A stretch of DNA of 37,722 nt, from the IMG/VR virus record IMGVR_UViG_3300046811_000104, positions 1 through 37,722 of that record. One strand, given 5' to 3'. Below the pieces are notes generated by a model that worked only from the letters and a program-made list of their open reading frames with translations, ran no database searches and was not told the origin of the DNA. A program made the position numbers and the translations under genes. Position 1 is the first letter of the stretch; every line of letters begins with the position of its first letter. This stretch comes from a virus. Below, piece by piece: positions 6,463 through 33,496 of this stretch.

Positions 6463-6555
6463 GTTTGCCAATCGGCCTGGTAAGTGCATTCTAGATTGGT
6501 CCTGTAGTAGCGCACACGACGAAACCGAAGACGAAACTCTGAAAGCGCGAAAGCA

Positions 6556-6570: not shown

Positions 6571-6592
6571 CCTTTCCCAACGGAGTCTCGTC

Positions 6593-7948: not shown

Positions 7949-7951
7949 GCC

Positions 7952-8401: not shown

Positions 8402-8403
8402 TC

Positions 8404-21557: not shown

Positions 21558-22840
21558 CACTTGCGCCCCTCCGTGATGGGCGGGACGGCGTGGATGGGGT
21601 CGTCGGCCTTTTCTCCGCATCGATAGTAGTCACCGCGCCGCTTATCACATCTGCCGTCGAGGTCGCGCACGAACGCATGCCCAGTGACCGGCGGTTGCTT
21701 TTTTTCCGTGGGGTTTTCGAGAGCGGGCGACATAGAAGCCTCCCGGTTAGAACAGGGGACGGTGTGACGACCACGCAAGTAGCCGCATACCCAACATGGG
21801 CAATTGTCGTCACAGGGTCCCTCTTTGTGCTTGCCCTGCTGATACCAGAGACAGTGAAACGCATGTCCAGGCCCGGTGGCCTCGGGCGGGGATGGTGCTG
21901 CGGATATCGAATGAACAGAATCGACAGACCTCTTGCCGCAGCCCTCGGACGCGCAGAGCAGATAACCCGACGTCTGGCCTGTCGGTACAACGAACGCATG
22001 CGTGGGCACGGGCGGCTTGAATTGCTCCTTGGTCAGGCCGAACGAAGGCGGCGACATAGCGCGCCGCACTTCGGCCACAACGAAATCGCGCAGCCTGCCC
22101 TCTAGCGCGTCAATCGACTCGCGTATGCCGTGCGCGTCGGCTTCGAATTCGTGCCCCTCCACCCGCTTGGCGAGCGCGGTCGATCGGTCATATTCATCGT
22201 TGATATGATCCCGTAGAGCCTCGTCTAGCATTTCGAGCGTGAGCGCCCCCTCCCCCTGCGCCTGCTCGGCTGCCTCTTCGCGGTCCTCTTCCTCCTCGTG
22301 CTCGTCGCACAACTCGCCGGGACCGATGCACGTGTCGCAATCCTCGGTTGCGACCTTCGGCTCAAGAAACATGTGACTGCCCCGTTCGGGGTCGTGGATG
22401 TCGCAGTGCCGAGGTTGCCTGCAATTTGGACGTGCGCAAACGTCCAACTCGCGTTTCGTCGGCTGCACCTGCTCGGCTGGCGGGGCGGCGAGATGCTTTG
22501 TGCGCGCCTTCATCCACGCAAGTAAGCTATCGGCATGAACGTTAAGCGGCGCAGTCATCAGCAGCCGCCGCGCCTCGGCCAGCTCGCCCTTGAGCCGGTC
22601 GATTTCGGTACCTTTGGCCTTCAGTAGCCCTGCCGAAAACTCCAGCAGTGACTTGAGCCGGTCCCGTTCGCCCTTCGCTTCCTCGACGAGACGGCGCAGC
22701 GCCAGTATCTCCGTGTCGTGGTCGTAGGCTAGTTCGCGAAGGGCAGCGCGAATCCTTCGCTGCGTCGTTATGCCGTCTCCCACTTCAATGCTTCGCTCTG
22801 ACCATTCCTCGGCCAGTGCGTTGATCTTCGCATCGTTCAT
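21557..22840 (-). CDS. Large protein with coiled coil and repeated Cys/His modules
   Basis: This encodes 427 residues from ATG 22840, with GGGAGGGG upstream. The start overlaps the preceding stop as ATGA. Residues about 40-105 form a charged coiled coil (RRLVEEAKGERDRLKSLLE). A Glu-rich stretch (EEEEDREEAAEQAQGE) is near 205-220. In between and towards the C-terminus are Cys/His units: CARPNCRQPRHCDIHDP, THAFVVPTG...LLCASEGCGKRSVDSVH, GHAFHCLWY...CPCWVCGYLRGRH and GHAFVRDLDGRC...RCGEKADDPIH. These recall small zinc-binding modules with a recurring HAF(V/H) start. The next two upstream genes carry related modules. The function is unknown. Confidence 0.65.
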   Translation of the reverse strand: MNDAKINALAEEWSERSIEVGDGITTQRRIRAALRELAYDHDTEILALRRLVEEAKGERDRLKSLLEFSAGLLKAKGTEIDRLKGELAEARRLLMTAPLNVHADSLLAWMKARTKHLAAPPAEQVQPTKRELDVCARPNCRQPRHCDIHDPERGSHMFLEPKVATEDCDTCIGPGELCDEHEEEEDREEAAEQAQGEGALTLEMLDEALRDHINDEYDRSTALAKRVEGHEFEADAHGIRESIDALEGRLRDFVVAEVRRAMSPPSFGLTKEQFKPPVPTHAFVVPTGQTSGYLLCASEGCGKRSVDSVHSISAAPSPPEATGPGHAFHCLWYQQGKHKEGPCDDNCPCWVCGYLRGRHTVPCSNREASMSPALENPTEKKQPPVTGHAFVRDLDGRCDKRRGDYYRCGEKADDPIHAVPPITEGRK

Positions 22841-23388
22841 GGCGTTCCCCTCCCTGCGCGACGGGCGATGGCGTCGGCGAATTCGCAGATTGGACACCTC
22901 GGCCGTCCCGGGCAGCAATAGCAGTGCGACTCATGTGCATCGCGGATGATGTCGGCCCTTTCTTCCCTCGCCCCGAGAGCGCGCCCTCGGGCGATACCGG
23001 CGGCGTAGGCTTCGTATGCGAGATTGTCCATCGCCTGCCTTGTCGAATGATATGGCCTCACGTTCATCGACATGACCGCATCCTCAACCAGTCGATCTAA
23101 CTCAGCCGCATCCCCATCGCCCGTGACGGGTGGGTCGTCTGGCTTGGGCTCGACGAAGCGATGACCGATTTGTCCCAGCTCCTTCCCGTGAGCGCGCCTG
23201 ACGTAGCCACAGAGACCGCCGTCGACACATGTCCCGGCGCATTTGTCGTTAGGACTCGTCGCGTCGGCTGGCGGTTGGGGCGCGGGGACGGGTTCGACGA
23301 AGGCGTGGGCGATGGTGTGATTCGTCCAGACGTGCGCCCGTCGAATCTGACGGCACAGCGGCTTGCCGCAAACGTCGTTGTCGCTCAC
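22837..23388 (-). CDS. Cys/His-module protein
   Basis: This encodes 183 residues from a GTG at 23388 that overlaps the upstream stop (GTGA), with GGAGGTG six bases ahead of it. Two modules at the N-terminus share a pattern: CGKPLCRQIRRAHVW followed by AHAFVEP, and CVDGGLCGYVRRAHGKE followed by GHRFVEPKP. The middle is helical (DLRLVEDAVMSM-like, ARGRALGAREERADIIRD). The C-terminus ends with another dense cluster (HESHCYCCPGRPRCPICEF). Zinc binding at several sites is likely. The product probably works together with the neighbouring Cys/His proteins. No known family can be named. Confidence 0.65.
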   Translation of the reverse strand: MSDNDVCGKPLCRQIRRAHVWTNHTIAHAFVEPVPAPQPPADATSPNDKCAGTCVDGGLCGYVRRAHGKELGQIGHRFVEPKPDDPPVTGDGDAAELDRLVEDAVMSMNVRPYHSTRQAMDNLAYEAYAAGIARGRALGAREERADIIRDAHESHCYCCPGRPRCPICEFADAIARRAGRGTP

Positions 23389-24038
23389 CGCGCACCTCCA
23401 ATTAGGTCGTCGTCGTGCATGCCGGCGATGTGACCGAGTCGGCGCAGTCCTTCAACGCGTGCAGGCTTGCCGACCGACATCCGCGACAGCATCGCGTGCG
23501 ACTCACAGAGACCGCCGTTGACGATGCCGTCGCATTCGACGTATCCGAGGCCTGGGCGCATGCACGACGGGACCGCAGGACGTCCAGGACACGCCGCTGC
23601 CGCATGTGGGCCTCCGCAGTCAGCGCAATCGGTGCGCTGTGGCGGGAGCTGCATAGGCTTCGCCGGGGCGGGCTTGCCGTGCGTCGGGCACGCCGTGTTC
23701 GCCTGTGTGTCACTGCATCCATGCGCGCACGCCGGGGCGGGTTGCGGGGCGGGCTTACGCGCCGGGCAGCTAGTAGAACATCCAGGTTCGCAACATTCAT
23801 CATGAGCGGTCTCGGCCGACTGCGCCGCGAGGGGAGGGAGGCGGGCGTCACGGCAGGCGGCAGAGCACCAACGCTGGTCGGCGTTCGTGCGCGGATCGTA
23901 AGCATGGAACTTCTCGCCCAGGATTACCTGGCGGTCGTCCTCATAAATGGCGTTCATCGTCATACCGCAGTACCAACGGCACTTCGTCCTGTCGGCCGCG
24001 AGCGGGGCGGCTGCGGGGACGTCATTAACCTTGTCCAT
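23385..24038 (-). CDS. Highly Cys-rich protein
   Basis: This encodes 217 residues from ATG 24038, with GGAGG seven bases ahead. About 19 Cys (close to 9%) occur in pairs and singles: KCRWYCGMTMN and WCSAACRDARL at the N-terminus, which may form one zinc ribbon-like domain, then ECCEPGCSTSCPARK, ACAHGCS, CADCGG and LCESH. The C-terminus (ARVEGLRRLGHIAGMHDDDL) is helical. Pro/Ala linkers separate the clusters. This is the first of three consecutive Cys/His-rich genes. The codon pattern is GC-rich like the phage backbone. Confidence 0.65.
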   Translation of the reverse strand: MDKVNDVPAAAPLAADRTKCRWYCGMTMNAIYEDDRQVILGEKFHAYDPRTNADQRWCSAACRDARLPPLAAQSAETAHDECCEPGCSTSCPARKPAPQPAPACAHGCSDTQANTACPTHGKPAPAKPMQLPPQRTDCADCGGPHAAAACPGRPAVPSCMRPGLGYVECDGIVNGGLCESHAMLSRMSVGKPARVEGLRRLGHIAGMHDDDLIGGAR

Positions 24039-24546
24039 TGATTCCCTCCGGGTAGTTGATCCATGCGAACTCGCCGAACGCGGCTTTGGCCCATGCGTCG
24101 TAAACCCTGGCAGCTGCTTCGGCCGTAACAAAAAGGCCTAGATAGCGATTCCTTTTTGAGACTGTTATCTGAGCCAGAAACCTAAGGCCACAGCGCCTAA
24201 CGCCCTTAAGGCCGACACGGTTTGATAGATTGGGTCTTCGATTGGAGTTGTTTTGCGCCCTGGTGGCGGAGCGAAGATTCTGCCTGGTATTGTTCAGGCC
24301 ATTGCCGTCGCGATGATCCATGATGCGAGCGCCGGACATACCCATAAGAGCACCGACAAAACGATGCAGGTCGCCTTCGTGGCGTCCATGGCCGCAGCGG
24401 CGATGGTGGCTGGCGGCGTAGACCCGAAGGCCGCTTATGCGGCGTCGCCAGCCGCACGTATTAACGAGAAGCCAATCCTCCGGGCTCACCCAGGCGAACT
24501 CCTCTCGGCTTCCTAGCTGTATCGGCATCGCGTCCAGGCTGATCAT
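24025..24546 (-). CDS. HNH homing endonuclease with AP2 DNA-binding domain
   Basis: This encodes 173 residues. The HNH core includes MDHRDGNGLNNTRQNLRSAT (76-95), matching the standard DH-x-(N/D)-G-x4-N-x3-NLR pattern. It follows a possible first His at residue 61. The C-terminal AP2 domain is clear: GLKGVRRCGLRFLAQITVSK (112-131), then LGLFVTAEAAARVYDAWAKA and a final FGEFAWINYP. Such genes are self-spreading homing elements. GC content falls locally, consistent with transfer. The ATG at 24546 is only 14 bases from the divergent start at 24561, so its promoter lies inside the neighbouring gene. Confidence 0.85.
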   Translation of the reverse strand: MISLDAMPIQLGSREEFAWVSPEDWLLVNTCGWRRRISGLRVYAASHHRRCGHGRHEGDLHRFVGALMGMSGARIMDHRDGNGLNNTRQNLRSATRAQNNSNRRPNLSNRVGLKGVRRCGLRFLAQITVSKRNRYLGLFVTAEAAARVYDAWAKAAFGEFAWINYPEGINGQG

Positions 24547-24560
24547 GCTACCTTCCCGAC

Positions 24561-25007
24561 GTGCCCCGTCGTCCGCTCGATAAAGAGGTTGCCCGCGCCA
24601 CTGCCCGTCGCGACAAAGCCGCCGCGATGCTGAAGGCCGAAGATGCTGCGCTGGAGGCTTTGCTCAAGGCGCAGGCCGAGCTTTTCGAGGCGGTCGCGGA
24701 AGAACATCGCTTGCCTGTTCACCGTTCAAGTGTTAACACTCGTAGTGAACAGATGCAACTCGAATCTCGCATCGCCATCAGTAAAGGCCGGTCGGCTGAC
24801 CCATTCATCGAGGTTATCAGGTCGGTCAAGCCTAAGGGGTTCACGCTGCGCAGTCTGGCCAAGCGGCTGAAGTGTAGCGTGTCTCTGCTTTCCATGCAGC
24901 GCCGAGCCGATAACCCGCGGCCTATTCCGCGTGACCGGGCCGAAGAGATCGAAGAGCTGACCGGCTGGCCGGCCGACTCGAAGCACTGGCCGGGCGGTCT
25001 CTCCTAA
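24561..25007 (+). CDS. XRE/Cro-like regulator with N-terminal coiled coil (repressor candidate)
   Basis: This encodes 148 residues from GTG 24561. The N-terminal half is a charged helix likely to form a coiled coil (MLKAEDAALEALLKAQAELF). The C-terminal half has a helix-turn-helix (FTLRSLAKRLKCSVSLLSMQ, about 94-113), followed by RPIPRDRAEEIEELTGWPAD. That segment matches the (R/K)-x-(I/V)-P-x-(E/D)-R-x-x-x-I-E-x-x-T-G stretch of phage Cro/CI-like proteins. Operator-like repeats AGTGTTCACT lie inside the gene (24715-24752) and right after it (25019-25070). It probably governs the lysis-lysogeny switch, repressing the rightward genes from 25083 and perhaps the leftward block. Confidence 0.7.
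   Translation: MPRRPLDKEVARATARRDKAAAMLKAEDAALEALLKAQAELFEAVAEEHRLPVHRSSVNTRSEQMQLESRIAISKGRSADPFIEVIRSVKPKGFTLRSLAKRLKCSVSLLSMQRRADNPRPIPRDRAEEIEELTGWPADSKHWPGGLS
24715..24752. promoter_or_regulatory. Compound operator-like palindrome inside the regulator gene
   Basis: A perfect 12-base palindrome, AGTGTTAACACT (24729-24740), is flanked almost symmetrically by CTGTTCAC (24715-24722) and its complement GTGAACAG (24745-24752). The same half-sites recur after the gene. This spacing would allow several dimers to bind cooperatively. Lying within the coding sequence, it may control a leftward promoter for the minus-strand genes or autoregulate the regulator. Confidence 0.6.
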
Positions 25008-25018
25008 GAAAAGTGGCG

Positions 25019-25070
25019 AGTGTTCACTTTTCCGCTTGCTAGCGGTGTGAACAGTTGCTAGTGTTCACTT
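25019..25070. promoter_or_regulatory. Operator cluster upstream of the rightward early operon
   Basis: AGTGTTCACTT occurs twice on the plus strand (25019-25029 and 25060-25070), with GTGAACAG (25047-25054) between. TTGCTAG is also directly repeated (25036-25042 and 25055-25061). The second AGTGTTCACTT ends 12 bases before the first start codon of the operon at 25083. TTGCTA and TAGTGT 17 bases apart could be a weak promoter overlapped by the operators, as expected for repressor-controlled transcription. Confidence 0.6.
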
Positions 25071-25082
25071 ATGGAGGCTTCG

Positions 25083-25265
25083 ATGGAGATGAACAGTGTT
25101 TCGGCGATCAAGGCGTACTTCGAGGGCGAGTTCGACGGCGGCCCGGGCCGCAAGATGGACATGGCCGAGTTTCGCGCTCTCGGCGACTCGCGCACGGCCA
25201 TCGCGGAGATGTGCGCGGCACGCATGACCGCGCTGGGTACGCCGGTCGAGATCAAGGCTGCGTAA
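25083..25265 (+). CDS. Small hypothetical protein under operator control
   Basis: This encodes 60 residues. I chose ATG 25083 because GGAGG (25073-25077) lies five bases upstream. The in-frame ATG at 25071 would place the ribosome site inside the gene. The protein has a short polar N-terminus, MAEFRALGDSRTAIAEMCAA and a C-terminal helix. It is the first gene after the operator cluster, where Cro- or CII-like regulators often sit, but no helix-turn-helix is obvious. Confidence 0.6.
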   Translation: MEMNSVSAIKAYFEGEFDGGPGRKMDMAEFRALGDSRTAIAEMCAARMTALGTPVEIKAA

Positions 25266-25272
25266 GGCCGAA

Positions 25273-25288
25273 ACCGGCTTCGGCCGGT
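25273..25288 (+). terminator. UUCG-capped hairpin, possible attenuator
   Basis: ACCGGC (25273-25278) and GCCGGT (25283-25288) form a perfect six-base stem capped by TTCG, a very stable tetraloop. No T-tract follows, so it is not a complete intrinsic terminator. It lies between two genes of the early operon and may stabilise mRNA ends or partly attenuate. Confidence 0.4.
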
Positions 25289-25321
25289 CGCGCCGTAACT
25301 CGGCGCCTGATGAGGCCAACA

Positions 25322-25660
25322 ATGAACTCGAAACCCCGTCACAATCCCTTCTGCGCACGCTGCGGCATCACCTGTGTCCTGCATGCGATGCCCGAGTCGT
25401 CCTGTGAGTCGTACATCGCGCCAGGCTCACGGGAAGCGCGCGAGTTCGAAGCGACGAAGGCCCCTGGCAAGCCGATTGATTCGGACTTCTTCGATCGCGC
25501 CCTGATGGAGGCGACCATCCTGGACCTTGAGGACCGCAGGCGCCGCGCGATACAGGCGACGCAGGCGTGTTTGTCGGCGGCGCGGGCTGGCGCGCCGCGC
25601 ACTGCTAGCCGCTATGCCGAACGGGCGCTCAAGGCGCTTGGCGCACTGGGGGCGTCGTGA
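25322..25660 (+). CDS. Small hypothetical protein with N-terminal Cys pair
   Basis: This encodes 112 residues from ATG 25322, preceded by GAGG. The N-terminus has FCARCGITCVLHAMPESSCE, which may be a zinc-binding loop. After a polar linker, residues about 65-110 form helices (LMEATILDLEDRRRRAIQAT, then YAERALKALGALG). No family is recognised. Its stop overlaps a GTG (GTGA) that starts the next short gene. Confidence 0.6.
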   Translation: MNSKPRHNPFCARCGITCVLHAMPESSCESYIAPGSREAREFEATKAPGKPIDSDFFDRALMEATILDLEDRRRRAIQATQACLSAARAGAPRTASRYAERALKALGALGAS

Positions 25661-25824
25661 GCGGCTGGGACGAGTGGTACGAGTTGCAGCACGGCTACGG
25701 CTGCAGCTGCGACGGGTGCGATCCGCGACCACCACGGTGTACCGAGTGCGACGAGGAGCTGAGGTACGAGAGCGGCGAGGTCTGCGACAAGTGCAACGGG
25801 TCGCGAGCGGTGGTGCGAACGTGA
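25657..25824 (+). CDS. Small zinc-finger-like protein (55 residues)
   Basis: The GTG at 25657 overlaps the previous stop (GTGA), and its own stop overlaps the next GTG. The product holds eight Cys in 55 residues: CSCDGCDPRP, then CTECDEELRY and CDKCNG. The last two CxxC pairs, about 15 residues apart, look like a zinc ribbon. It was found by following the coupled-gene rule. It probably folds around zinc and may act in DNA or protein binding. Confidence 0.55.
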   Translation: MSGWDEWYELQHGYGCSCDGCDPRPPRCTECDEELRYESGEVCDKCNGSRAVVRT

Positions 25825-26126
25825 GACTCCCGAAGAAGATGCCAGACAAGTACCTGCCCGGCGGCGTCGAGGCATGGCTGCTCACGATGAACGACGGGAC
25901 GGCGAAGATCGTAGCCACCGACGGCTACGCACACGCAATGGCCGAGATTGTTCAGCCCGCGACGGCAGACACCTGCTCGGCTGCCATGTCCCACGTCATC
26001 AAGGAACTGAAGCGCGAGAACGGCTCGCCGCGCGTCGGCGACTTCGTCTCTAGGGTCGATCGAACGACGGGTGAGTTCTGGCTCAATGATCGGTTCGGGC
26101 CGTTCAAATTCGAGGTGCAGCAATGA
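25821..26126 (+). CDS. Small hypothetical protein
   Basis: This encodes 101 residues from a GTG at 25821 that overlaps the previous stop. The sequence shows strands (AWLLTMNDGTAKIVATDG), a helix (MSHVIKELKREN) and a closing part that looks beta-rich (VGDFVSRVDRTTGEFWLNDR then FGPFKFEVQQ). It is compact and soluble. No family is recognised. The stop overlaps the next ATG (ATGA). Confidence 0.55.
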   Translation: MRLPKKMPDKYLPGGVEAWLLTMNDGTAKIVATDGYAHAMAEIVQPATADTCSAAMSHVIKELKRENGSPRVGDFVSRVDRTTGEFWLNDRFGPFKFEVQQ

Positions 26127-26344
26127 TCGGCTGGTTCATGCGGCGCCGTTGCTTCTGGTGCTCGCGCTCGGCGATTGGGATGTGCTGGTCGCACCACATG
26201 GACGTGCACCACATCCTCAATCGCGCCGGTCGCATCGCGCTGGTTTCGATCGGCACGGCGTTCCTGGTGTCGCTGGTCCTGGCTGGCGTCGCGGGGTGGT
26301 ACGGCAAGGTTGCGTGGGAGCTGAGTCATTTGGTGGGGCGATGA
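26123..26344 (+). CDS. Small membrane protein with Cys/His N-terminus
   Basis: This encodes 73 residues from an ATG overlapping the previous stop. The N-terminal part (RRRCFWCSRSAIGMCWSHHM) has a CxxC and further Cys and His residues that could bind metal. Residues about 37-60 form one transmembrane segment (IALVSIGTAFLVSLVLAGVA). A role in superinfection exclusion or host membrane modulation is possible but unproven. The stop overlaps the next ATG. Confidence 0.55.
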   Translation: MIGWFMRRRCFWCSRSAIGMCWSHHMDVHHILNRAGRIALVSIGTAFLVSLVLAGVAGWYGKVAWELSHLVGR

Positions 26345-26739
26345 CAAAGGCTCCGATTGGGTCACCTTCGCGCGTGAAGGTGACGAAAGTCGTCCGTACG
26401 TCCTGGCGTATTGAGTGGGAGTACGACGGCCAGGAATTCGTCGGCGACGAAGATGGAACCTACTTCGAGACGGTGCGGCGTATCCGGGTTCGTCACATGC
26501 AGGGGCGCGGAAACGCCTATCGCGCTGCGGCCATGCGCCTGATCTTCGCGCGCCGCGATCGGTACGCCAAGGGGGTGATCGGCGGGAAGCGCCAAGGCTG
26601 CAAGCTCTGCGACGCAGCGCCGGTGAACCGATACCCCGATGACCCATCGGCCTGCCGATATCACGACGGGGACAGTGTCGAAGCATTGCGCAATCGGCTC
26701 GCGCGCCGGCTCATGTGGCGCGATGGGGTGAAGCCGTGA
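26341..26739 (+). CDS. Hypothetical protein with CxxC...C..H element
   Basis: This encodes 132 residues from ATG 26341, overlapping the previous stop (ATGA). An N-terminal beta-rich part (VKVTKVVRTSWRIEWEYDGQ) is followed by a basic helix (AYRAAAMRLIFARRDRYAKG). A possible zinc site follows: CKLCDAAPVNRYPDDPSACR with YHDG. The C-terminus is basic and helical. No family is recognised. The stop overlaps the next GTG. Confidence 0.55.
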   Translation: MTKAPIGSPSRVKVTKVVRTSWRIEWEYDGQEFVGDEDGTYFETVRRIRVRHMQGRGNAYRAAAMRLIFARRDRYAKGVIGGKRQGCKLCDAAPVNRYPDDPSACRYHDGDSVEALRNRLARRLMWRDGVKP

Positions 26740-26864
26740 ACTGCCCCACAATTCGCAATCGCGACCCGCGGCCCATCAAGCTCATTCGTTGCGGATTCGG
26801 CGCGCTGATTTCGAGATGGCGGGATTTCTGTTGGCGGCACTTGGTTGAAATGACGAAAGGATGA
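26736..26864 (+). CDS. Very small basic protein (42 residues)
   Basis: The GTG at 26736 overlaps the preceding stop and its stop overlaps the next ATG (ATGA). The product is basic and aromatic (RDPRPIKLIRCGFGALISRW, then RDFCWRHL). It may be a real minimal peptide or simply a coupling frame. The function is unknown. Confidence 0.4.
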   Translation: MNCPTIRNRDPRPIKLIRCGFGALISRWRDFCWRHLVEMTKG

Positions 26865-27064
26865 AAATGCTATTCAAAAACCATGACCCATTCAAGGATG
26901 CTCCAATGATGAACATGCGCGAGATTCACCGCAATATTGAGCGCCGGCAGAGAACGGTGTTCGGTATTGCGGCCATAACTGCGCCGTTAGTCATCATGTT
27001 CAACGTCGGCATTGTGGCCGGAATCGTTTGGGTTGCTTATCACTTCATTCGAAAGTTCTGGTAA
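26861..27064 (+). CDS. Small membrane protein
   Basis: This encodes 67 residues. The ATG at 26861 overlaps the previous stop. An ATG two codons later (26867) has AAAGGA at a better distance and may be the real start. A polar N-terminus of about 30 residues precedes an apolar C-terminal segment (FGIAAITAPLVIMFNVGIVA, continuing GIVWVAYHF), long enough to cross the membrane once or as a hairpin. The stop overlaps the next ATG (TAATG). The function is unknown. Confidence 0.6.
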   Translation: MKMLFKNHDPFKDAPMMNMREIHRNIERRQRTVFGIAAITAPLVIMFNVGIVAGIVWVAYHFIRKFW

Positions 27065-27453
27065 TGACCATCTCCGACGCACAAGCCCTAGTCCGCGCGT
27101 TTCAAGAAAAGTTCTTCGGCCCGCAACCGTCAACGCCGCTGACCGAGGATCAAGTTGATTGGGACGAGCACACGTTGCGGCTCGAATGGATGGACAGCGA
27201 GCACAGCGAAATCGAGACGGCGATTCGGCGCAGGAACATTGCGGACCTGGCCGACGGCTACCTGGACGACCTGTTCTATGCCCTCGGCGGTCTCGTTCGG
27301 CTCGGCATCGACGCTGCGCCACTGTTTCAGGCCATTACGGACGCCAACATGGCCAAGGTGCGAATCCCGGGACTCGCCAAAATAGCGAAGCCCGAGGGAT
27401 GGACGCCGCCCGATATCGCTGGACTGATCGAAAAGCAAAGGACTGGAAAATGA
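27064..27453 (+). CDS. MazG-like NTP pyrophosphatase
   Basis: This encodes 129 residues from an ATG overlapping the previous stop. It has the all-alpha NTP pyrophosphohydrolase pattern: EWMDSEHSEIETAI (41-54) supplies the acidic E-x-x-E helix, and ADLADGYLDDLFYALGGLVR (60-79) the second acidic helix. The family's GID...F..V..(S/A)NM(A/S)K stretch is seen as GIDAAPLFQAITDANMAKVR (81-100). Such enzymes hydrolyse non-canonical NTPs or alter alarmone and nucleotide pools in infected cells. It is joined by overlap to the recombinase gene downstream, so both probably act on DNA metabolism. Confidence 0.8.
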   Translation: MTISDAQALVRAFQEKFFGPQPSTPLTEDQVDWDEHTLRLEWMDSEHSEIETAIRRRNIADLADGYLDDLFYALGGLVRLGIDAAPLFQAITDANMAKVRIPGLAKIAKPEGWTPPDIAGLIEKQRTGK

Positions 27454-28970
27454 CCGCCGCAGCCGTCGAAACGAAGCAGCGCGTGGTGCTGATAGACCTT
27501 TCGTCGCTGTTCCATCCCGCTTGGAGAGCTAACGAAAACGGGCCGCTATCGGTCGCATTCAGCGCCACGCTCGACGCCGTCACCCGGTGCGCGAAGAAAG
27601 ACCCCAACGCACTGACGGCCATCTGCCTCGACTCGCGCAAGAGCTGGAGGAAAGACCTTGTCCCGACGTACAAGGCGCAGCGGGAGAAGCTCGGCAACGA
27701 CTTCTACGACACGCTTGACCGGGTCAAGGAGCGCCTGCGCGCGGACGGTTACCTGCTTTGGGAGTCGGAGGGCTTCGAGGCCGACGACGTCATTGCGACC
27801 GCGTGCGAGGAAGCGATCCGCCGTGGGCACCCCGTCGCCATCTGCAGCGCCGATAAGGACCTGATGCAGCTTCTGCGGCCCGGCGTGAAGCAGCTGCGCA
27901 CGCACGACTGGTCGGTGTGGTCCGAGCTCGAAGCCGAAGCCAAGTTCGGCGTGAAGATGTCGCAACTGGGCGACTGGCTGGCCCTCGTGGGCGACGCATC
28001 GGACAACATCAAGGGCTGTCAGGGCGTCGGCGAGAAGCGCGCCACAGCGATGCTGCAGACCAATGGCGACTGGGCCGGCATCGTCAAGGCACTCGAGGAG
28101 AAGCAGTTCACGCCGGCAATGACGGCGGCGCTCCAGGGCTTCGACTATGCAACCACGCGCAAGCTGATTGAGCTGCGCCGAGACGTCCCGATCAACTTCG
28201 ACGACCTGTACAGCGGTCGTTCCGTGAAACCCATCGTCAAACTGGAGGAGCCACCCGTGGAAGACGTACCAAGTAGCGTCATTGCGGCAGAGAAGGTTTT
28301 CGGCGTGAAGGCCGAGACAACGCACATTGCGCCCGAGTCGGAGCCGCAAACCGTAGCCATCGGCGAACTGGTCGATATGCCAAAGCCGGCGGCGTCGAAC
28401 GATACCAAGGCTCTCGCGGTGCCGGCGCCGAACCCGGCATTGCAGCCAAACAGCGTCGCCGATGCGTACTGGCTGGCCAAGGCGATGATGAACAGCCGGC
28501 TCTACACGAAGTTCGGCAATCCCGAGGCCATCCTCGCAACCATGATCCGCGGCAAGGAGATGGGCTTTCCGGTGCTCACGAGCCTGGACATGTTCCATGT
28601 CATCAGCGGCAAGCCGTCGCTGGCCGCGAACACGATTCAAGTGCTCGCCGAGAAGCACCCCGATTGCGTCTACCTGCGCCGCGTGTCGTCGAGCATGACT
28701 GAGGCGACGTGGGAGACGAAGCACGCGAAGCACCCGCAGCCGGAGACGTTCACGTATTCGATCGATGACGCGGTAGCAGCGGGCATTGCAGCTGCCGAAC
28801 CCGCTCCGCCGCCGGGACCAGGCAAGAGGGACGACCGAGGGCAGTGGGACAAGCGACGCAAGGAGATGTTGCGCAAGACTGCGATGGTGCAGCTCGTGCG
28901 CATGGTTTACCCGTCGGCGACTCTCGGGCTCTACGCCCGCGAGGAGCTGACCGACCGCGAGGAGGACTGA
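27450..28970 (+). CDS. Fusion of 5'-3' flap exonuclease and RecT-like annealase
   Basis: This encodes 506 residues from an ATG overlapping the MazG-like stop (ATGA), as one uninterrupted frame. Residues 1-250 are a FEN-type 5'-3' nuclease: VVLIDLSSLF (first Asp), GFEADDVIA (108-116), ICSADKDLMQLL (131-142) and the helix-hairpin-helix GDASDNIKGCQGVGEKRA (181-198). Residues about 335-505 look like the phage annealase family with RecT-like architecture: AYWLAKAMMNSRLY, then ILATMIRGKEMGFPVLTSLD, VISGKPSLAANTIQVLAEKH, and the diagnostic W-x-K-x-x-x-x-ML-R...Y-P...G-L-Y-x-x-EE at 466-499. A Pro/Ala/Glu-rich linker joins them. Exonuclease and annealase are normally separate genes. ATG 28377 could give a free annealase, but it lacks a good ribosome site. 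Confidence 0.8.
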   Translation: MTAAAVETKQRVVLIDLSSLFHPAWRANENGPLSVAFSATLDAVTRCAKKDPNALTAICLDSRKSWRKDLVPTYKAQREKLGNDFYDTLDRVKERLRADGYLLWESEGFEADDVIATACEEAIRRGHPVAICSADKDLMQLLRPGVKQLRTHDWSVWSELEAEAKFGVKMSQLGDWLALVGDASDNIKGCQGVGEKRATAMLQTNGDWAGIVKALEEKQFTPAMTAALQGFDYATTRKLIELRRDVPINFDDLYSGRSVKPIVKLEEPPVEDVPSSVIAAEKVFGVKAETTHIAPESEPQTVAIGELVDMPKPAASNDTKALAVPAPNPALQPNSVADAYWLAKAMMNSRLYTKFGNPEAILATMIRGKEMGFPVLTSLDMFHVISGKPSLAANTIQVLAEKHPDCVYLRRVSSSMTEATWETKHAKHPQPETFTYSIDDAVAAGIAAAEPAPPPGPGKRDDRGQWDKRRKEMLRKTAMVQLVRMVYPSATLGLYAREELTDREED

Positions 28971-28972
28971 AC

Positions 28973-29416
28973 ATGAACGACGGCGATTACAAAGCGAAGC
29001 TGATCAAGAGCGGCAGCGAGTGGATTCAGTGGGGAAGGCTGGGAAACGACCAGAAGCCCGCCGCTGTCATGATGTTTGAAATCGAGGATGGCAGCGTCAT
29101 GGAGTGGACCGGGTGGCTTTCTGCCGCAGCGTACGATCGCACGGTGGACGCCTGCCACGCGCTTGGTTTCTCGGGCGAAGACCTGGACCTGTTCAACGAA
29201 CAGGAGCCGCACGGGCGTTGCCGCGTAACGGTCAAGACCGAGGAGTACAAAGGCGTCCGCCGGCAAAAGATCGCATTCGTCAACCCGGCAACCTACGGCG
29301 TGAAGGCCGAAAACCGCATGTCGGTCGCCGACCTGAAGAAGCTCTCGGCCGAGATGAAGAAGTCTCATCCTGCCGGGTTCGACCTGAACTCAGAAGATCA
29401 ACGGCTCGGCTTCTAG
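28973..29416 (+). CDS. Probable recombination-partner protein (SSB-like candidate)
   Basis: This encodes 147 residues, with GAGGAGGA eight bases ahead of the ATG and two bases after the recombinase stop. The first 110 residues look like a compact beta-rich domain (DYKAKLIKSGSEWIQWGRLG, AAVMMFEIEDGSVMEWTGWL, then GRCRVTVKTEEYKGVRRQKI). A short hydrophilic C-terminus follows. In many phages an OB-fold ssDNA-binding protein follows the annealase, and this position and strand pattern fit that idea. No acidic SSB tail is seen and no family motif can be confirmed, so the role is inferred from context. Confidence 0.5.
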   Translation: MNDGDYKAKLIKSGSEWIQWGRLGNDQKPAAVMMFEIEDGSVMEWTGWLSAAAYDRTVDACHALGFSGEDLDLFNEQEPHGRCRVTVKTEEYKGVRRQKIAFVNPATYGVKAENRMSVADLKKLSAEMKKSHPAGFDLNSEDQRLGF

Positions 29417-29442
29417 TCACCCCGCCGGCTACGCCGGCTATT

Positions 29443-29555
29443 CGGCGTGGGAGCGGTAATGGACAACCGCGGCCATTGATCAGGCTCCCGGGAATCTGCG
29501 GCTGGAGACGTCCAGTAAGCGACCTGGGTTTCGGGTTCGAATCCCGACACGCCGA
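29443..29555 (+). ncRNA. Aberrant tRNA-like RNA (about 113 nt)
   Basis: CGGCGTG (29443-29449) pairs perfectly with CACGCCG (29548-29554), followed by A. It resembles a bacterial tRNA-Pro acceptor. A canonical T-arm (TCGGG, loop TTCGAAT, CCCGA; 29531-29547) abuts it. A D-arm-like hairpin has GCGGT/ACCGC with the AA..GG..A loop pattern (29453-29470). GGCC/GGCT (29471-29486) can form an anticodon-like arm with an eight-base loop containing GAT. CCCGGG (29487-29492) and CCTGGG (29523-29528) enclose a nested hairpin CTGGA/TCCAG, like an oversized variable arm. No CCA is encoded, because the ribosome site AGGAGG of the next gene begins two bases after the discriminator. It may be a degenerate tRNA, a tRNA mimic or an att site. 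Confidence 0.45.
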
Positions 29556-29566
29556 CAGGAGGAACC

Positions 29567-29806
29567 ATGCGCGACCCCAATTCAACCCTCGGCGCCGCTG
29601 CGCTCACGGCCCTCAAGATCATGGAAGCAAAGCGGCGCGTATCGCCAACGCATGCCAAGGATGTGAAGGAGGCTAGACGACGCGCTTTCGAAGGTCCCGG
29701 CCGGCACATCGCAGAACCGCGCGACAAGGCACGCGACAAAGCGCGGGCCGAACGCGAGGCCGAAGCGGCGACGTGGATTCAGGAAGTGAGGAGTAGGAAG
29801 CGATGA
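29567..29806 (+). CDS. Small basic helical protein
   Basis: This encodes 79 residues, with AGGAGG five bases ahead of the ATG, directly after the tRNA-like element. It is rich in Arg, Lys, Ala and Glu: TLGAAALTALKIMEAKRRVS, then DKARDKARAEREAEAATWIQ. A charged single helix or coiled coil is likely, with possible nucleic-acid binding. No family is recognised. The stop overlaps the next ATG (ATGA). Confidence 0.6.
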   Translation: MRDPNSTLGAAALTALKIMEAKRRVSPTHAKDVKEARRRAFEGPGRHIAEPRDKARDKARAEREAEAATWIQEVRSRKR

Positions 29807-30117
29807 AGATCAACGGCGAGGAATGCGAGTTGGTGACGTCGTTCGCATCGTTACGGGCGGGCGATGTCGTTTGGATACTAGGCTGCGGCTGGTGCACCAA
29901 GCACCATCGTTATCTCTTGCTTTCCCTGAAGGAGATGGATACCGAGAGTCCTAACGGGGTCCTCGAAACAGAGACAGCATGGGAGGCCGTTCCTGAGCAG
30001 GAATGTGGGTCTGATTGCGTCGCTAAATCGTGCGCCGAGTCGGGAGAACTATACCGCGTTATCAATCCTCTCCTCGACGCCAAGCCCGTCACGCGCGCGA
30101 AGGAGCTGGCGCGATGA
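29803..30117 (+). CDS. Small hypothetical Cys-containing protein
   Basis: This encodes 104 residues from an ATG overlapping the previous stop. It begins with a beta-rich part (KINGEECELVTSFASLRAGD) and continues VVWILGCGWCTKHHRYLLLS, with a CxxC plus two His that could bind metal. Later Cys (ECGSDCVAKSC) add a second cluster. The local base composition is slightly less GC-rich than that of its neighbours. No family is recognised. Confidence 0.6.
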   Translation: MKINGEECELVTSFASLRAGDVVWILGCGWCTKHHRYLLLSLKEMDTESPNGVLETETAWEAVPEQECGSDCVAKSCAESGELYRVINPLLDAKPVTRAKELAR

Positions 30118-30299
30118 AACCGCGATTCATCGACCAGCGCTTGATCTCCATCCCGAAGCCAGGGTGGAAACCGGCGGGCAAGACGCCCACGCCAGCGCCG
30201 CACATCATTGTCATTGCCTATCTGGACACCGACGGCCGCCCCTGGCTCTACGACGATGACTTGGGCCTGCGTCGCCTCGATGCGCCCGACGAACCGTGA
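30114..30299 (+). CDS. Small hypothetical protein, last gene of the early operon
   Basis: This encodes 61 residues from ATG 30114, overlapping the previous stop (ATGA). It is Pro-rich at the N-terminus (SIPKPGWKPAGKTPTPAP) and then has strands with an aspartate turn (IIVIAYLDTDGRPWLYDDDL). No motif is recognised. It is followed by the long gene-free region before the integrase. Confidence 0.55.
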   Translation: MKPRFIDQRLISIPKPGWKPAGKTPTPAPHIIVIAYLDTDGRPWLYDDDLGLRRLDAPDEP

Positions 30300-30595
30300 C
30301 GCCCGTCATTGAACGTGCGAGCGGCGATTTCTTTCGCGAATTGTTGGTGAACATTGCGTCAAGACGCAGTGACCGAAACCGTAACCGACGCCCCATACGG
30401 TTTCGAAGCACGCGTCACCGTCGGGACTGACACCGCGGTCATCGCACATTCGAAACCTGTGTCGTTGGTGCATTGCGCTAGCTGACATTTGCTAGGCCGA
30501 CGTAAGGGCACACACAACTACCAAGACGCGCCAGAAGATTGGCGCGACAGTTCACGGCTCGGCTTTGGCGACGCTGAAGCCCCGGGGGTGGCCAG
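30300..30595. other. Gene-free repeat-rich region upstream of integrase (attP candidate)
   Basis: No convincing gene is present in this 296-base gap. It contains several repeats: CGAAACCGTA (30374-30383) and TACGGTTTCG (30396-30405), a perfect ten-base inverted repeat with a 12-base spacer, and another CGAAACC near 30451. TGCGTC-AA-GACGCA (30355-30368) is a near-contiguous palindrome. GTTGGTG-AA-CATTGCG (30343-30358) recurs as GTTGGTGCATTGCG (30464-30477). Inverted and direct repeats next to a tyrosine integrase are typical of core- and arm-type sites of an attachment site. The region is less GC-rich than the coding DNA. Confidence 0.45.
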
Positions 30596-31561
30596 GTGGA
30601 CGACGCAGAGCTGCGCGCGCTTCTAGCGGCGCAGGCACGACTCATAACGGAGCTGTCCGAGCGCATTGCGCCGACGCGCCCGTCTATCACCGTCGCCGAG
30701 CTCTACAGGACGTGCGAGATATCACAGCAGCATCGTCCCGGCTGGGTGACGTCCGCGCACCTACTGCGACCGCTGATCAAGCGCTGGGGCTCGCGTGACG
30801 TGGCCTCCCTTATGGTCGCCGACTGGACCGCCTACCGCGTCGAGCGCAGCGACTTGGCGGCGACCTCGCTGAACTCCGTCCTGGCCTGCCTGCTCGCAAT
30901 GGTGCGCTGGGGGAAACGCGAGGGGATGTATCCCGCGGTGCCCCAGCTGTGCGAGGCGAAGAGACTCAAGGCCAAGAAGCACAGGGAGAGCGCCACGACC
31001 GAGGAAGACGTCGAACACCTCCTGTTTGAGTCGGACCTGGCGCGGGACACGTTCATCATCTTGGCGGCGAACGATGCCGGGCTGAGGAATTCCGAGATAC
31101 GCCTACTCGAGCACTCCTGGGTGGACCGGGCGAGGCTGCAGATCAACCTGCCCGCAGCCATCACCAAGAGTCGTAGGGCGCGCTCTGTGCCCATCACGCG
31201 CCGCCTGCTTGCTTCTATCGACGCCCTGCCTCGAGACATCCGCTCGCCTCTTGTGCTGCGTTCTCCGCGCACGGGGGGCGCCTACTCGCGCAACTGGATG
31301 TCTATGATCTGGCGCGGGCTCGCCGAACGCGCCGAACTCAAGCCCGCCGCCGGGGAGAAGCGCGTACCGCTGCACTCTGGCCGTCGAGGCTATGCCACCC
31401 GGGCCGTCGAGCGCGGCGTGCGCATCGAGGTACTACAGCAGATTCTAGGTCACGCGAACCTTCAGCAGACGGCCGATTACGTCGCCTCGAGGCCGACCGA
31501 TCTAAGCTCTGCTCGTGAGACTTTTGAGCGCGGCATCGAGCGCGATCGCACGCGCCGCTAG
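30596..31561 (+). CDS. int: Tyrosine integrase
   Basis: This encodes 321 residues from GTG 30596. The N-terminal core-binding domain covers about residues 30-125 (SLNSVLACLLAMVRWGKREG). The catalytic domain shows every family residue: Arg164 in NDAGLRNSEIRLLEHSW, Lys191 in ITKSRRARSVPIT, His260-x-x-Arg263 in PLHSGRRGYATRAVERG, His286 in ILGHANLQQTADYV and the nucleophile Tyr295. It should catalyse integration of the phage at an att site, and makes the phage temperate. The length is a little short for phage integrases. A terminator follows the stop. Confidence 0.95.
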   Translation: MDDAELRALLAAQARLITELSERIAPTRPSITVAELYRTCEISQQHRPGWVTSAHLLRPLIKRWGSRDVASLMVADWTAYRVERSDLAATSLNSVLACLLAMVRWGKREGMYPAVPQLCEAKRLKAKKHRESATTEEDVEHLLFESDLARDTFIILAANDAGLRNSEIRLLEHSWVDRARLQINLPAAITKSRRARSVPITRRLLASIDALPRDIRSPLVLRSPRTGGAYSRNWMSMIWRGLAERAELKPAAGEKRVPLHSGRRGYATRAVERGVRIEVLQQILGHANLQQTADYVASRPTDLSSARETFERGIERDRTRR

Positions 31562-31569
31562 CCATTCTT

Positions 31570-31602
31570 GTACTGGCCGTCAACCCGCTAGTACGATTTT
31601 TT
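31570..31602 (+). terminator. Intrinsic terminator after int
   Basis: GTACTGGC (31570-31577) and GCTAGTAC (31587-31594) form an eight-base stem with one G-T pair and a nine-base loop, followed by GA and six T (31597-31602). It starts nine bases after the int stop and should end rightward transcription from int. It also separates int from the accessory operon that begins at 31858. Confidence 0.75.
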
Positions 31603-31792
31603 GCTGGTCGCAATACTGAACATGCGTGCGTTTCCAAGCGGTTACACTATGGAGCCGCCGCCATAGCTCTCTCGTATCAACTGTAAGCGAAATTCCCACT
31701 TGCAAGCATTCGAACGTCGTGCAAACTGGACAATACCCCCGATGAGTTTCACGACGATCGAAGAAGGCGGCCGCGCGCTCCTCGCTGCTCAT
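31580..31792 (-). CDS. Doubtful small zinc-finger-like protein
   Basis: This encodes 70 residues reading leftwards into the int terminator. It has GYCPVCTTFECLQVG near residue 20, and HSVTAWKRTHVQYC near residue 48, so C-x2-C plus H and C could bind zinc. GC content is lower than its surroundings. Against it, no ribosome site precedes the ATG and the end lies in the terminator. A perfect 11-base inverted repeat lies in its first third. The region is otherwise without an obvious gene. Confidence 0.3.
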   Translation of the reverse strand: MSSEERAAAFFDRRETHRGYCPVCTTFECLQVGISLTVDTRELWRRLHSVTAWKRTHVQYCDQQKIVLAG

Positions 31793-31798
31793 CGGGGG
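31736..31798. repeat. Perfect 11-base inverted repeat
   Basis: CCCCCGATGAG (31736-31746) and CTCATCGGGGG (31788-31798) are exact complements separated by 41 bases. They lie 60 bases before the start of the accessory operon at 31858. CTATGG (31647-31652) and CCATAG (31661-31666) form a smaller dyad nearby. They may bind a regulator, form a long RNA hairpin in the leader, or mark an element end. No matching ribosome or promoter hexamers were recognised. Confidence 0.55.
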
Positions 31799-31857
31799 AT
31801 GTTTCAGGGTTGCAGCGCGCCGTCTCCTTGGGTCGTTGTTGGACGGAGGTAGGTTCT

Positions 31858-32154
31858 ATGGCCACATCGCGCAAGTGCTTTACCAATTATAAAGTTGGTT
31901 CGCCCATTTCCCCACAGGTCGCAGGGGTGCGTTCCAGAAAGGTCGACGGGACGGCCGCCAAGGTGTTCCAGGCGGCTCTGACCTGCGGCCTGACAAAACG
32001 CCAGGCGGCCGAGCTCGTCGCGGCGACCATGGCGGCCGGCGCTACCGCGGCCCAGTCCCCCCTGGCCCGGGCCGTGGTCCAGGTCGAATGCGAGACGAAG
32101 ACACGCTCCCTGGTCATGGCCATCCGTGAGCGGAACGCGCGGAGAGCGGCGTGA
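31858..32154 (+). CDS. Small hypothetical protein, first in the accessory operon
   Basis: This encodes 98 residues from ATG 31858, with GGAGGT seven bases upstream. It has a basic N-terminus (MATSRKCFTNYKVG) and helical middle (LTCGLTKRQAAELVAATMAA) that could be a helix-turn-helix-like unit, then an alanine-rich stretch and a basic C-terminus (MAIRERNARRAA). It may bind DNA. No family is recognised. Its stop overlaps the next GTG. Confidence 0.65.
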   Translation: MATSRKCFTNYKVGSPISPQVAGVRSRKVDGTAAKVFQAALTCGLTKRQAAELVAATMAAGATAAQSPLARAVVQVECETKTRSLVMAIRERNARRAA

Positions 32155-32414
32155 AGACGGTCACAGTGGAAGTTCCGACCCTTGGCTGCTCTGGCTGCGA
32201 TCGAGACTTCAACGAGAACGAAACCGCCTATTGCCAAGAGTGCGCGGACGCCTACTGCGCCGAATCTGCGAGCGAAGCGGTCGCCGAAAAGCCGTCGGTG
32301 ACGAAAGAACTCCGGGACTGGGTCGCGCGCCGTCACCTCATGGGCCAAATCTCGCGCGAGGTCCGTGAGCAATTGGAGCTGTGCGCGGATGACATCGAGG
32401 CGGGCCATGGGTAA
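32151..32414 (+). CDS. Small zinc-ribbon-like protein
   Basis: This encodes 87 residues from a GTG overlapping the previous stop (GTGA). The N-terminal half has GCSGCDRDFNENETAYCQEC then ADAYC: two CxxC pairs about 13 residues apart, which form a plausible zinc ribbon. The C-terminal half is helical (TKELRDWVARRHLMGQISRE). No family is named. The protein overlaps the following gene by eight bases. Confidence 0.6.
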   Translation: MKTVTVEVPTLGCSGCDRDFNENETAYCQECADAYCAESASEAVAEKPSVTKELRDWVARRHLMGQISREVREQLELCADDIEAGHG

Positions 32415-32823
32415 GGGCAAATCGAGCTGGTGGATCAAATGCACCCATCGCGGCTGTCTCTTCCAGCGCGACGAAATCGCGCTCAAGTCGGATGCTAAAC
32501 GCCACGCGACGGCGCATACGGACATTGGCGGCCCATCGCACGTCGTTGACGTACTGGAACGCGAGTCGTTGCCAACGACCGTTCGCGTAGGCGACAAAAT
32601 CAAGCTCAAAGAAGACGCAATCCTGGATTACAAAACAGCATGTGACCTGGCCGGTTACGACGTCGATTTACGCGCCGTTCGCGAGGTGATTCGGACTGAC
32701 CCATTCGGCACCGGCGGACGCACGCGGCTATACGTCGATGGACCGCCGTTCATGTTCTATCCGTCGGACGTGCAATTGGCCTGGTCGAACGACAAGGAAC
32801 GAAGAGAGGCTCTCGGCTTATGA
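32407..32823 (+). CDS. C2H2-like zinc-finger hypothetical protein
   Basis: This encodes 138 residues from ATG 32407. The N-terminus has CTHRGC, then about 15 residues and HATAH. This C-x4-C-x15-H-x3-H arrangement is close to a C2H2 finger but with a longer centre. A beta-rich part with VRVGDKIKLKEDAILDYKTA and YVDGPPFMFYPSDVQLAW follows. The final 11 residues, DKERREALGL preceded by N, recur almost exactly at the end of the next gene product. The stop overlaps the next ATG. Confidence 0.6.
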   Translation: MGKGKSSWWIKCTHRGCLFQRDEIALKSDAKRHATAHTDIGGPSHVVDVLERESLPTTVRVGDKIKLKEDAILDYKTACDLAGYDVDLRAVREVIRTDPFGTGGRTRLYVDGPPFMFYPSDVQLAWSNDKERREALGL

Positions 32824-33293
32824 GAAAGAAAAGACATGGACATACCCGAAGCGGCGGATGGATGTCACCGGAGTATTCATCCTGGCGCGCGGCTCGCGAT
32901 CGTTGCCGTAACCCCAATATCAAAAAGTGGTCAATATACGGCGGAGCCGGAATCACGTTTTGCACGCGGTGGGACTGCTTCGAAACTTTCCTATCTGACA
33001 TGGGTCCGAAGCCTACCCCACGTCACACCCTCGAACGCGTGAACAGTAAGGGCAACTATGATCCTGGCAACTGCGTATGGGCCACCTATGCCGCGCAGAA
33101 TCGGAATCGCTCCAGCAATCGTTACGTGACCATTGGCTCCGATACAAAGTGCATAGGCGAGTGGGCGGAGATCGTAGGAATCCATCGCAATAGCATGTAT
33201 GCGCGAATCGATCGCGGCCTGACCGGCGAAGCGCTCCTGGCTCCGCCCGGTCGGAACTCGGATAAGGAACGCCGGGAAGGGTTGGGGCTGTGA
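32820..33293 (+). CDS. HNH-type endonuclease-like protein with a borrowed tail
   Basis: This encodes 157 residues from an ATG overlapping the previous stop. It fits a familiar phage/bacterial homing-type family: PEYSSWRAARDRCRNPNIKK, YGGAGITFCTRWDCFETFLS, then PRHTLERVNSKGNYDPGNCV with WATYAAQNRNRSSN, and a C-terminal part (IGEWAEIVGIHRNSMYARID) like a helix-turn-helix. It probably nicks or cuts DNA. GC content is lower than its neighbours, suggesting recent arrival. Its last residues (SDKERREGLGL) match the tail of the upstream gene product, so the insertion may have duplicated that junction. Confidence 0.75.
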   Translation: MRKKRHGHTRSGGWMSPEYSSWRAARDRCRNPNIKKWSIYGGAGITFCTRWDCFETFLSDMGPKPTPRHTLERVNSKGNYDPGNCVWATYAAQNRNRSSNRYVTIGSDTKCIGEWAEIVGIHRNSMYARIDRGLTGEALLAPPGRNSDKERREGLGL

Positions 33294-33496
33294 TCTTCGA
33301 GGCCCTGCGCGACAAGCTCCTAACCCGCGGCCCCGGCGGTTTCGTGTACGACTCAGCCGAACTCGCAATCGGCTGCATCGTCGTCGGCGTGTATTCGCTC
33401 GCGTTGGGCACTGCGGCGATTGGCGGGGTCGTTGTGGGCGGGGTTGTTACGGCGGCGATGTGGGTTGGCGAGCTGGCGGAGTTTAGGGAGCGATGA
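33290..33496 (+). CDS. Small membrane protein
   Basis: This encodes 68 residues from a GTG overlapping the previous stop. After a polar start (FEALRDKLLTRGPGGFVYD), two adjoining apolar stretches, ELAIGCIVVGVYSLALGTAA and IGGVVVGGVVTAAMWVGELA, suggest one or two membrane passes with many Gly. The C-terminus is short and charged. The function is unknown. The stop overlaps the next ATG (ATGA). Confidence 0.55.
   Translation: MIFEALRDKLLTRGPGGFVYDSAELAIGCIVVGVYSLALGTAAIGGVVVGGVVTAAMWVGELAEFRER

Follow-up and report, generated by a model that had tools for sequence, protein, structure and literature searches.

A flap-nuclease domain fused to a RecT/Redβ-type annealase core: a putative one-chain recombinase of uncultured phages

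We analyzed a stretch of viral DNA of 37,722 nucleotides (IMG/VR virus record IMGVR_UViG_3300046811_000104, positions 1 to 37,722; hereafter the window), in which a single gene on the plus strand, at 27450-28970, encodes a FEN / DNA polymerase I (Pol I)-type 5'-3' exonuclease domain joined to a RecT/Redβ-type annealase core (506 amino acids plus the stop codon). The key finding is that this FEN-RecT fusion is real and not an artefact; comparison of translated sequences confirms that the design recurs in dozens of uncultured phages. The reading we favour, with some reserve, is that the protein acts as a one-chain phage recombinase, in which the FEN domain would replace a λ-type exonuclease and the covalent tether would replace docking between two partners.

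A preliminary description of this DNA had proposed a single frame of 506 residues at 27450-28970 with a FEN-type nuclease and a RecT-like annealase separated by a Pro/Ala linker. The frame is open without any internal stop, and all motifs named there were located in it (FEADDVI, SADKDL, GDASDNIKGCQGVG, WDKRRKEMLR, YP and GLYAREE). Pfam recognized one FEN domain at residues 12-166, a second at 169-251 and RecT at 464-504, all above the curated cut-offs, and the combination of both domains in one chain was borne out likewise by PHROGs and by structure models. Calling the linker Pro/Ala was fair, as these two residues make up 30% of it (11 P and 11 A in 74).

The nuclease half, delimited by Pfam, invariant alignment columns and a structure model, spans residues 9-256 (27474-28217, plus strand). 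The N-terminal resolvase-like and the C-terminal SAM/H3TH domains of a FEN were both recognized by Pfam (PF02739, E-value 1.3e-26, 93.7 bits with a cut-off of 34.3; PF01367, 5.8e-16, 59.2 bits with a cut-off of 40). PHROGs assigned this half to phrog_107, exonuclease (2.7e-33), and NCBIfam groups it with DNA polymerase I and Xni. Thirteen residues (D16, D61, R67, Y74, K75, R78, E110, D112, D113, D135, D137, D182 and D185) do not vary across the 38 aligned fusions; they are also kept in L106 and L161, two loci in which FEN is fused to another annealase, and a third such locus, L154, has E aligned at D61 (L numbers designate individual viral loci). We take the nine acidic residues among them to be the metal carboxylates of Pol I and T5 FEN, and Y-K-x-x-R to be the helical-arch residues. 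The FEN model superimposed on ExoIX (3zdc; Z 28.3, root-mean-square deviation (rmsd) 1.9, 243 residues) and on T5 FEN (1exn; Z 25.1, rmsd 2.2, 241 residues), and a profile of the fusions matched Taq polymerase (3e-56), Xni (2e-45), T5 FEN (1e-25) and, weakly, Redβ (0.0023). By domain content and model, the N-terminal half is a complete Pol I/T5-type FEN with predicted 5' nuclease activity. The phage and bacterial FENs T5 D15, ExoIX/Xni, the Pol I 5' nuclease and T4 RNase H share its fold, its sequence family and its active-site residues but, unlike the fusion, carry no annealase domain.

The C-terminal half (residues 330-506; 28437-28967, plus strand) was delimited by Pfam, PHROGs, alignment and modelling as a RecT/Redβ-type core without a C-terminal extension. 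In the window, the Pfam RecT family (PF03837) covers residues 464-504 only (profile positions 151-191 of 198; 3.9e-7, 30.3 bits with a cut-off of 24), phrog_4171 extends the RecT-like match to residues 335-504 (4.1e-11), and in the relative L019 the Pfam match spans profile positions 20-187. The λ Bet model of NCBIfam, TIGR01913, matched this half weakly and below its cut-off (9e-4). A structure model built with 59 sequences reached a mean predicted local distance difference test score (pLDDT) of 93.4, and in a Foldseek search against the PDB its sole match at 0.001 or better was Redβ (7ujl, 3.3e-5). VIA-align likewise scored Redβ highest (Z 8.8, rmsd 3.6, 136 residues), followed by the Listeria-phage RecT 7ub2 (5.7), RAD52 (5.2-5.5) and phage Sak (5.0). 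Since unrelated folds begin at Z 4.9, the Redβ match alone stands clear, and those to RecT, RAD52 and Sak are consistent with it. The similarity to known annealases on which the preliminary description had made its proposal depend is therefore present. Membership of the window's annealase in the Mgm101 family was considered and, at a VIA-align Z of 4.0, not adopted. A chance match of the C-terminal half is rejected by Pfam, PHROGs, the alignment with relatives, Foldseek and VIA-align. Residues 330-506 are predicted to adopt the Redβ/RecT-type core fold, with single-stranded DNA (ssDNA) binding, oligomerization and annealing as putative activities.

In the full-length model, both domains are confidently predicted, and between them lies a flexible linker (residues 257-329; 28218-28436, plus strand) with a pLDDT below 50 over residues 265-325. 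Its length in the relatives is 52-195 amino acids. A missed stop codon, against which the preliminary description had cautioned, is not what joins the two halves: the linker is free of stops and frameshifts in the window, in its twin L002 and in at least 40 distinct relatives. L002, another IMG/VR contig, is 100% identical in DNA to window positions 22450-33967 (11,518 bases, linker included), and L003, also from IMG/VR, is 100% identical to 22450-28004 (5,555 bases), this contig ending before the linker. Being near-clonal twins, L002 and L003 argue against a local sequence error, yet they do not represent independent evolution.

The family of fusions surfaced only once the window had been aligned with its first distant fusion; searches of viral contigs with a single protein or with the annealase half returned near-identical twins only. 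A search with an annealase alignment yielded 80 loci (the best 80 of 518 relatives), two of which were fused to FEN, namely the window's twin and L019; the other 78 form our set of standalone RecT loci. The fusion of L019 is 38% identical to that of the window along the whole chain. Searching with this pair gave ten loci, nine matching along the chain and one ending at the contig end, and searching with eight fusions gave the best 80 of 354 relatives. Among the 83 loci L098-L180, 41 are FEN-RecT fusions, 41 have a FEN without a RecT visible to the profile, and one has both as separate genes; for L178, a RecT-like gene close to FEN came to light in an additional search that used no profile. Leaving out the duplicate L099, the 41 fused loci represent at least 40 distinct sequences, or at least 41 with the window. 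The 38-sequence alignment comprises the window and 37 of these 40, without L123 and L130 (cut C-terminally) and L126 (cut at the start), and falls into 28 clusters at 70% and 20 clusters at 50% identity. By a list compiled by hand, the 42 fusion contigs carry 39 different sample ids. In UniProt, A0A6J5MUB0 of an uncultured Caudovirales phage (462 amino acids) matches the whole fusion model (Foldseek E-value 7.7e-41, 31% over 510 columns) and the annealase model alone (2e-17, 34%); its name, 'PIN_53EXO domain containing protein', refers to the nuclease half only. The preliminary description knew of no such fusion, but with this entry and at least 41 distinct sequences the architecture is clearly not unique. 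L151 carries a RecT-like gene (phrog_561, 3630-4631) and a FEN gene (4986-5873) side by side on the plus strand, possibly an unfused form.

The ratios of nonsynonymous to synonymous substitution rates (dN/dS) were determined for fourteen chosen pairs, some with common members, and the main figures are those of the ten closest. Here dN/dS was 0.06-0.21 for FEN and 0.02-0.16 for the annealase, save 0.31 in L128/L129, where dS is just 0.02. The linker, with 0.11-0.54 where defined, was higher than both domains in six of nine close pairs; it was undefined in L100/L101, lower than the annealase in L128/L129 and lower than FEN in L124/L127 and L127/L138. The pair L131/L134 gave 0.40-0.43 in all parts. 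For L119/L118 and the window's two pairs all segments ranged from 0.27 to 0.70 at a dS of 0.9-2.0, which makes the estimate for the window itself weak. Judged by these ratios, both domains have been held under purifying selection.

Which nuclease accompanies the annealase was analyzed in 34 fusion records, comprising the window, 30 of the 40 FEN-RecT contigs and the three fusions to other annealases. PF02739 was found once per record and in the fusion frame in 34 of 34, whereas YqaJ (PF09588) and DUF3799 (PF12684) were each found in none of them. Of the 31 FEN-RecT records, 28 had a single PF03837 match at an E-value of 0.001 or better, located in the fusion frame, and among all 34 records 16 had one above its cut-off. 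The window record itself has one FEN, one RecT match, both within the fusion, and no YqaJ. The picture is reversed in records with a standalone RecT (30 of the 78 loci, on contigs mostly shorter than those of the fusions), with YqaJ in 22 of 30 and FEN in none. Altogether, FEN and YqaJ were never found together in the 64 annealase records searched. A YqaJ profile of our own matched 68 of the 78 standalone loci and nothing in the flanks of the fused ones. As the fusion records lack YqaJ and DUF3799, FEN seems to stand in for the resection nuclease and not to supplement it.

A second difference lies in the region following the annealase core. The fusions have a median of 0 residues there (-4 to 10, n = 36), while the standalone proteins have a median of 125 (9-288, n = 58 of the 78 loci; not counted were duplicates, frames truncated at a contig end and matches ending over 12 positions before the profile does). 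The only standalone protein with a tail below 90 amino acids is that of L029, which also lacks YqaJ; this short RecT-like gene (L029:3848-4426, plus strand) has almost no tail, its record has no YqaJ or FEN match, and it may be an orphan annealase. According to PMC5052646, the Redβ C-terminal region shares in the contact with λ exonuclease, this specific contact being needed for recombination of double-stranded DNA (dsDNA), for which the region is required; the region also serves ssDNA recombination through a second function. In that paper the mixtures RecE/Redβ and Redα/RecT fail (on heterotypic pairs, see also PMC7496540). The simplest reading is that a covalent tether would make such a docking tail dispensable.

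Like λ Red (Redα and Redβ) and the Rac RecE/RecT system, the fusion pairs a 5'-3' nuclease with an annealase of the Redβ/RecT fold, but it does so in one polypeptide, with a PIN-type FEN instead of a PD-(D/E)XK nuclease of the λ-exo/YqaJ kind and without a C-terminal extension. The core is homologous to standalone RecT-like annealases of the Gordonia phages Yeezy and TillyBobJoe, Propionibacterium phage G4 and the Spartinivicinus plasmid pB; the fusion core aligned with ten relatives at 25-29% identity with shared G, A, M, R, P and E columns. Those four annealases adjoin a gene of the RecE/λ-exo family and extend past the core, whereas the fusion ends at it. Of the defining features of a two-component phage recombinase (SynExo pair), the fusion shows neither separate exonuclease and annealase proteins nor a λ-exo/YqaJ-type nuclease. 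Nevertheless it probably works like a SynExo pair, a cooperation suggested by the fusion itself and by its mutual exclusion with YqaJ. A RecET fusion, YP_512292.1, is named in PMC8766483 as left out of recombinase seeds taken from Lopes et al. 2010; compared by name, it combines exonuclease and annealase in one chain as our fusion does, but its nuclease is of the RecE type and not FEN. Our guess that YP_512292.1 belongs to Sodalis phage phiSG1 was wrong, since exonuclease VIII and a RecT-like protein are encoded by two distinct genes there. An exonuclease-annealase fusion as such therefore has a precedent in RecET; a FEN-annealase fusion was not found in literature searches, which reached few subscription papers.

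The annealase attached to FEN is not always RecT-like. In L106 (3098-4528, plus strand), FEN and linker are followed by an Mgm101/Rad52-family annealase (PF06420, 7.4e-29) in place of the RecT core; the protein is 69% identical to that of the window through FEN and linker up to residue 319, where homology stops, and the flanking DNA matches window 23256-28215 in pieces. In L161 (5001-6464, plus strand), FEN is joined in one chain to a single strand annealing protein of phrog_3290 (3.7e-48), whose standalone relatives include Mycobacterium and Streptomyces phage proteins described as hypothetical or ssDNA-binding, and L154 (4737-6572, plus strand) has FEN fused to a Sak4-like AAA ATPase (phrog_124, 3.7e-35; PF13479). 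PF03837 is absent from the records of all three. In a quick FEN tree with Shimodaira-Hasegawa-like approximate likelihood ratio test (SH-aLRT) support only, from which eleven loci (duplicate, cut or Pol I) and FEN matches below 150 amino acids were excluded, the window stands beside L106 (support 99) within the FEN-RecT fusions, L161 groups with five RecT fusions (97), and L154 is a long branch of unsure placement. In the annealase tree, the fused annealases form one group relative to the sampled standalone ones (support 87). Two pairs of near-identical fusions have discordant dS values in their two domains, with 0.22 for FEN and 2.33 for the annealase in L107/L108, and 0.46 and 0.02 in L128/L129. 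This is as expected if the modules recombine and points to recombination near the linker.

In the mechanism that we propose, the FEN domain would digest or trim the 5' strand at breaks, ends or gaps, and the tethered RecT-type core would take the exposed 3' strand and anneal it to a complementary strand. FEN would thereby occupy the place of the YqaJ/λ-exo nuclease found in most phages with standalone relatives, and the disordered linker would replace the C-terminal docking domain that joins Redβ to λ exonuclease. From the sequences we infer both activities, their cooperation and FEN resection ahead of annealing; that resection and annealing take place in cis is a reasonable view, and it draws support from 34 of 34 fusion records being free of a YqaJ match. 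Resection is favoured because the searches of these records turned up no other candidate for the λ-exo role, and flap trimming is favoured by the usual behaviour of FENs. Alternatively, FEN may act after annealing: once the annealase has paired strands at gaps or at the fork, FEN would cut away whatever 5' flap or RNA primer the new joint has displaced, making ligation possible, with resection left to host nucleases. This we consider possible but rather unlikely. The closest relatives of the domain are flap and gap nucleases (Taq and M. smegmatis Pol I, ExoIX/Xni, T5 FEN and T4 RNase H), the helical-arch residues are invariant, and in an early Red model, given in a figure legend of the review PMC7496540, resolution of the joint falls to a 5'-3' exonuclease or to the flap activity of Pol I. 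The absence of YqaJ and DUF3799 from the fusion records speaks for resection by FEN instead, although the host could still resect.

The remaining explanations appear much less probable. Mere gene economy, in which FEN would remove replication primers and be fused to the annealase without a shared function, agrees with the lack of widely shared neighbour genes and with the occurrence of FENs without an annealase domain in other phage contigs; we regard it as improbable, however, given that FEN is joined to four kinds of annealase and avoids YqaJ throughout the annealase records. Even less credible is that nuclease and annealase become separate proteins in the cell, whether through proteolytic cleavage of the linker or through translation from an internal start. 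A long, disordered linker that evolves fast in most pairs would suit this, as would the Met at residue 310 of the window's protein, ahead of the annealase, but this Met is not conserved in eight aligned fusions and the frame is intact in all of the at least 41 distinct sequences. There is next to no chance that assembly or sequencing joined two neighbouring genes: although the window is a metagenomic contig and its exact linker sequence is backed by one near-identical twin only, the identical DNA of L002 and the same architecture in at least 40 distinct relatives refute this for FEN-RecT; for the single-contig swaps L106, L154 and L161, such an artefact may still apply.

Several observations weigh against the proposed one-chain resection and annealing. 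FEN-family enzymes are usually flap or gap nucleases of low processivity, while λ exonuclease is a toroidal, processive resector, so the fusion may act after annealing. Pfam misses true cases of YqaJ, as in L041, where it finds none and our own profile gives 3e-33; YqaJ was lacking in 8 of the 30 standalone-RecT records, and the tested neighbours of standalone RecT in ToastyFinz, Salinibacter phage 13_1 and pSP90 gave no YqaJ either. In the FEN tree, the FEN-RecT fusions do not group as a single clade (four changes, at least three of them forced); repeated origins of the fusion, or repeated exchange of FENs, may thus lie behind them. The standalone set in the tail and tree comparisons is lopsided, with 25 of 28 in one clade. 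The swaps L106, L154 and L161 were seen on one contig each, and no further copies turned up when they were sought; the C-terminus of L106 has no match in PHROGs and that of L161 none in Pfam. Outside the uncultivated contigs, tblastn with four queries (the Mgm101 fusion L106 not among them) against 50,697 phage records gave at least 80% coverage in 0 of 318, 0 of 73, 0 of 260 and 0 of 239 matching records, 0 of 289 matching plasmid records reached this coverage, and neither a fusion nor a host emerged when contigs of bacterial genomes were scanned with two patterns. Methylobacterium plasmid matches (up to 63% of the query) were rejected as fusions, the three that were read being DNA polymerase I frames. 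Window positions 1-24000 had no match in a near-identity search against phages.

A bolder version of the proposal, which we put forward tentatively and hold to be doubtful, is that these fusions are widespread one-chain machines in which FEN first resects the 5' strand and later trims the annealing flap to leave a ligatable nick, the linker border serving as the swap point for RecT, Mgm101/Rad52-like, Sak4-like and phrog_3290 annealases. If FEN did act on both sides of annealing, one protein would do everything except ligation. Recombineering, the mosaicism of phages and models of how Rad52 acts all build on phage recombinases. With a FEN standing in for λ exonuclease, it seems that a nuclease of another family can serve as the exonuclease partner, and the tether may substitute for the specific contact that stops heterotypic pairs from working. 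The fusion makes the purpose of the exonuclease-annealase contact directly testable and offers candidates for one-gene recombineering, and the fusions to Mgm101- and Sak4-like proteins link those annealases to a nuclease partner.

The preliminary description had also placed the gene in a coherent recombination cassette with a MazG-like gene upstream and a possible ssDNA-binding protein downstream. The former is present as a MazG/PRA-PH-like gene (27064-27453, plus strand, with the ATG at 27064 as presumed start; PF01503, 6e-6; phrog_671, 4.6e-17), whose stop overlaps the start codon of the fusion as ATGA; among the fusion loci, homologues were found elsewhere only in the window's twin and in L116. 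The latter was not borne out, as the downstream open reading frame (ORF) of 147 amino acids (28973-29416, plus strand), starting two bases past the fusion stop, matched no family in Pfam or PHROGs; a homologue (5.6e-12) follows the Mgm101 fusion in L106. A gene for an ssDNA-binding protein does lie directly after the fusion in three relatives (L102 and L114 by Pfam; L103 by PF00436 with matching coordinates), and PF00436 had no match in 30 of the 34 fusion records. The cassette itself did not hold up among the relatives: of 42 loci, at most 8 share any one cluster of neighbouring genes, a number attained by three clusters, including that of the integrase. With so few shared neighbours and PF00436 unmatched in 30 of 34 records, the fusion looks self-contained.

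In the rest of the window, a tyrosine integrase (30596-31561, plus strand; PF00589, 2.1e-15) points to a temperate phage, and such an integrase occurs in 18 of the 34 fusion records. A terminase and a replication initiator are also encoded. None of the five long ORFs tested in the presumed structural region (3228-12892, plus strand) matched a PHROG at 0.001, so that the virion may differ widely from those described. Further genes encode a Mom-like DNA modification protein (34958-35437, plus strand; phrog_1384, 7.6e-32) and two HNH endonucleases (24025-24546, minus strand, and 32820-33293, plus strand; phrog_99 and phrog_3377). Near the fusion gene of L019, an ORF at 1228-1884 on the minus strand reads like a resolvase that, from its motif, we take to be of the RuvC type.

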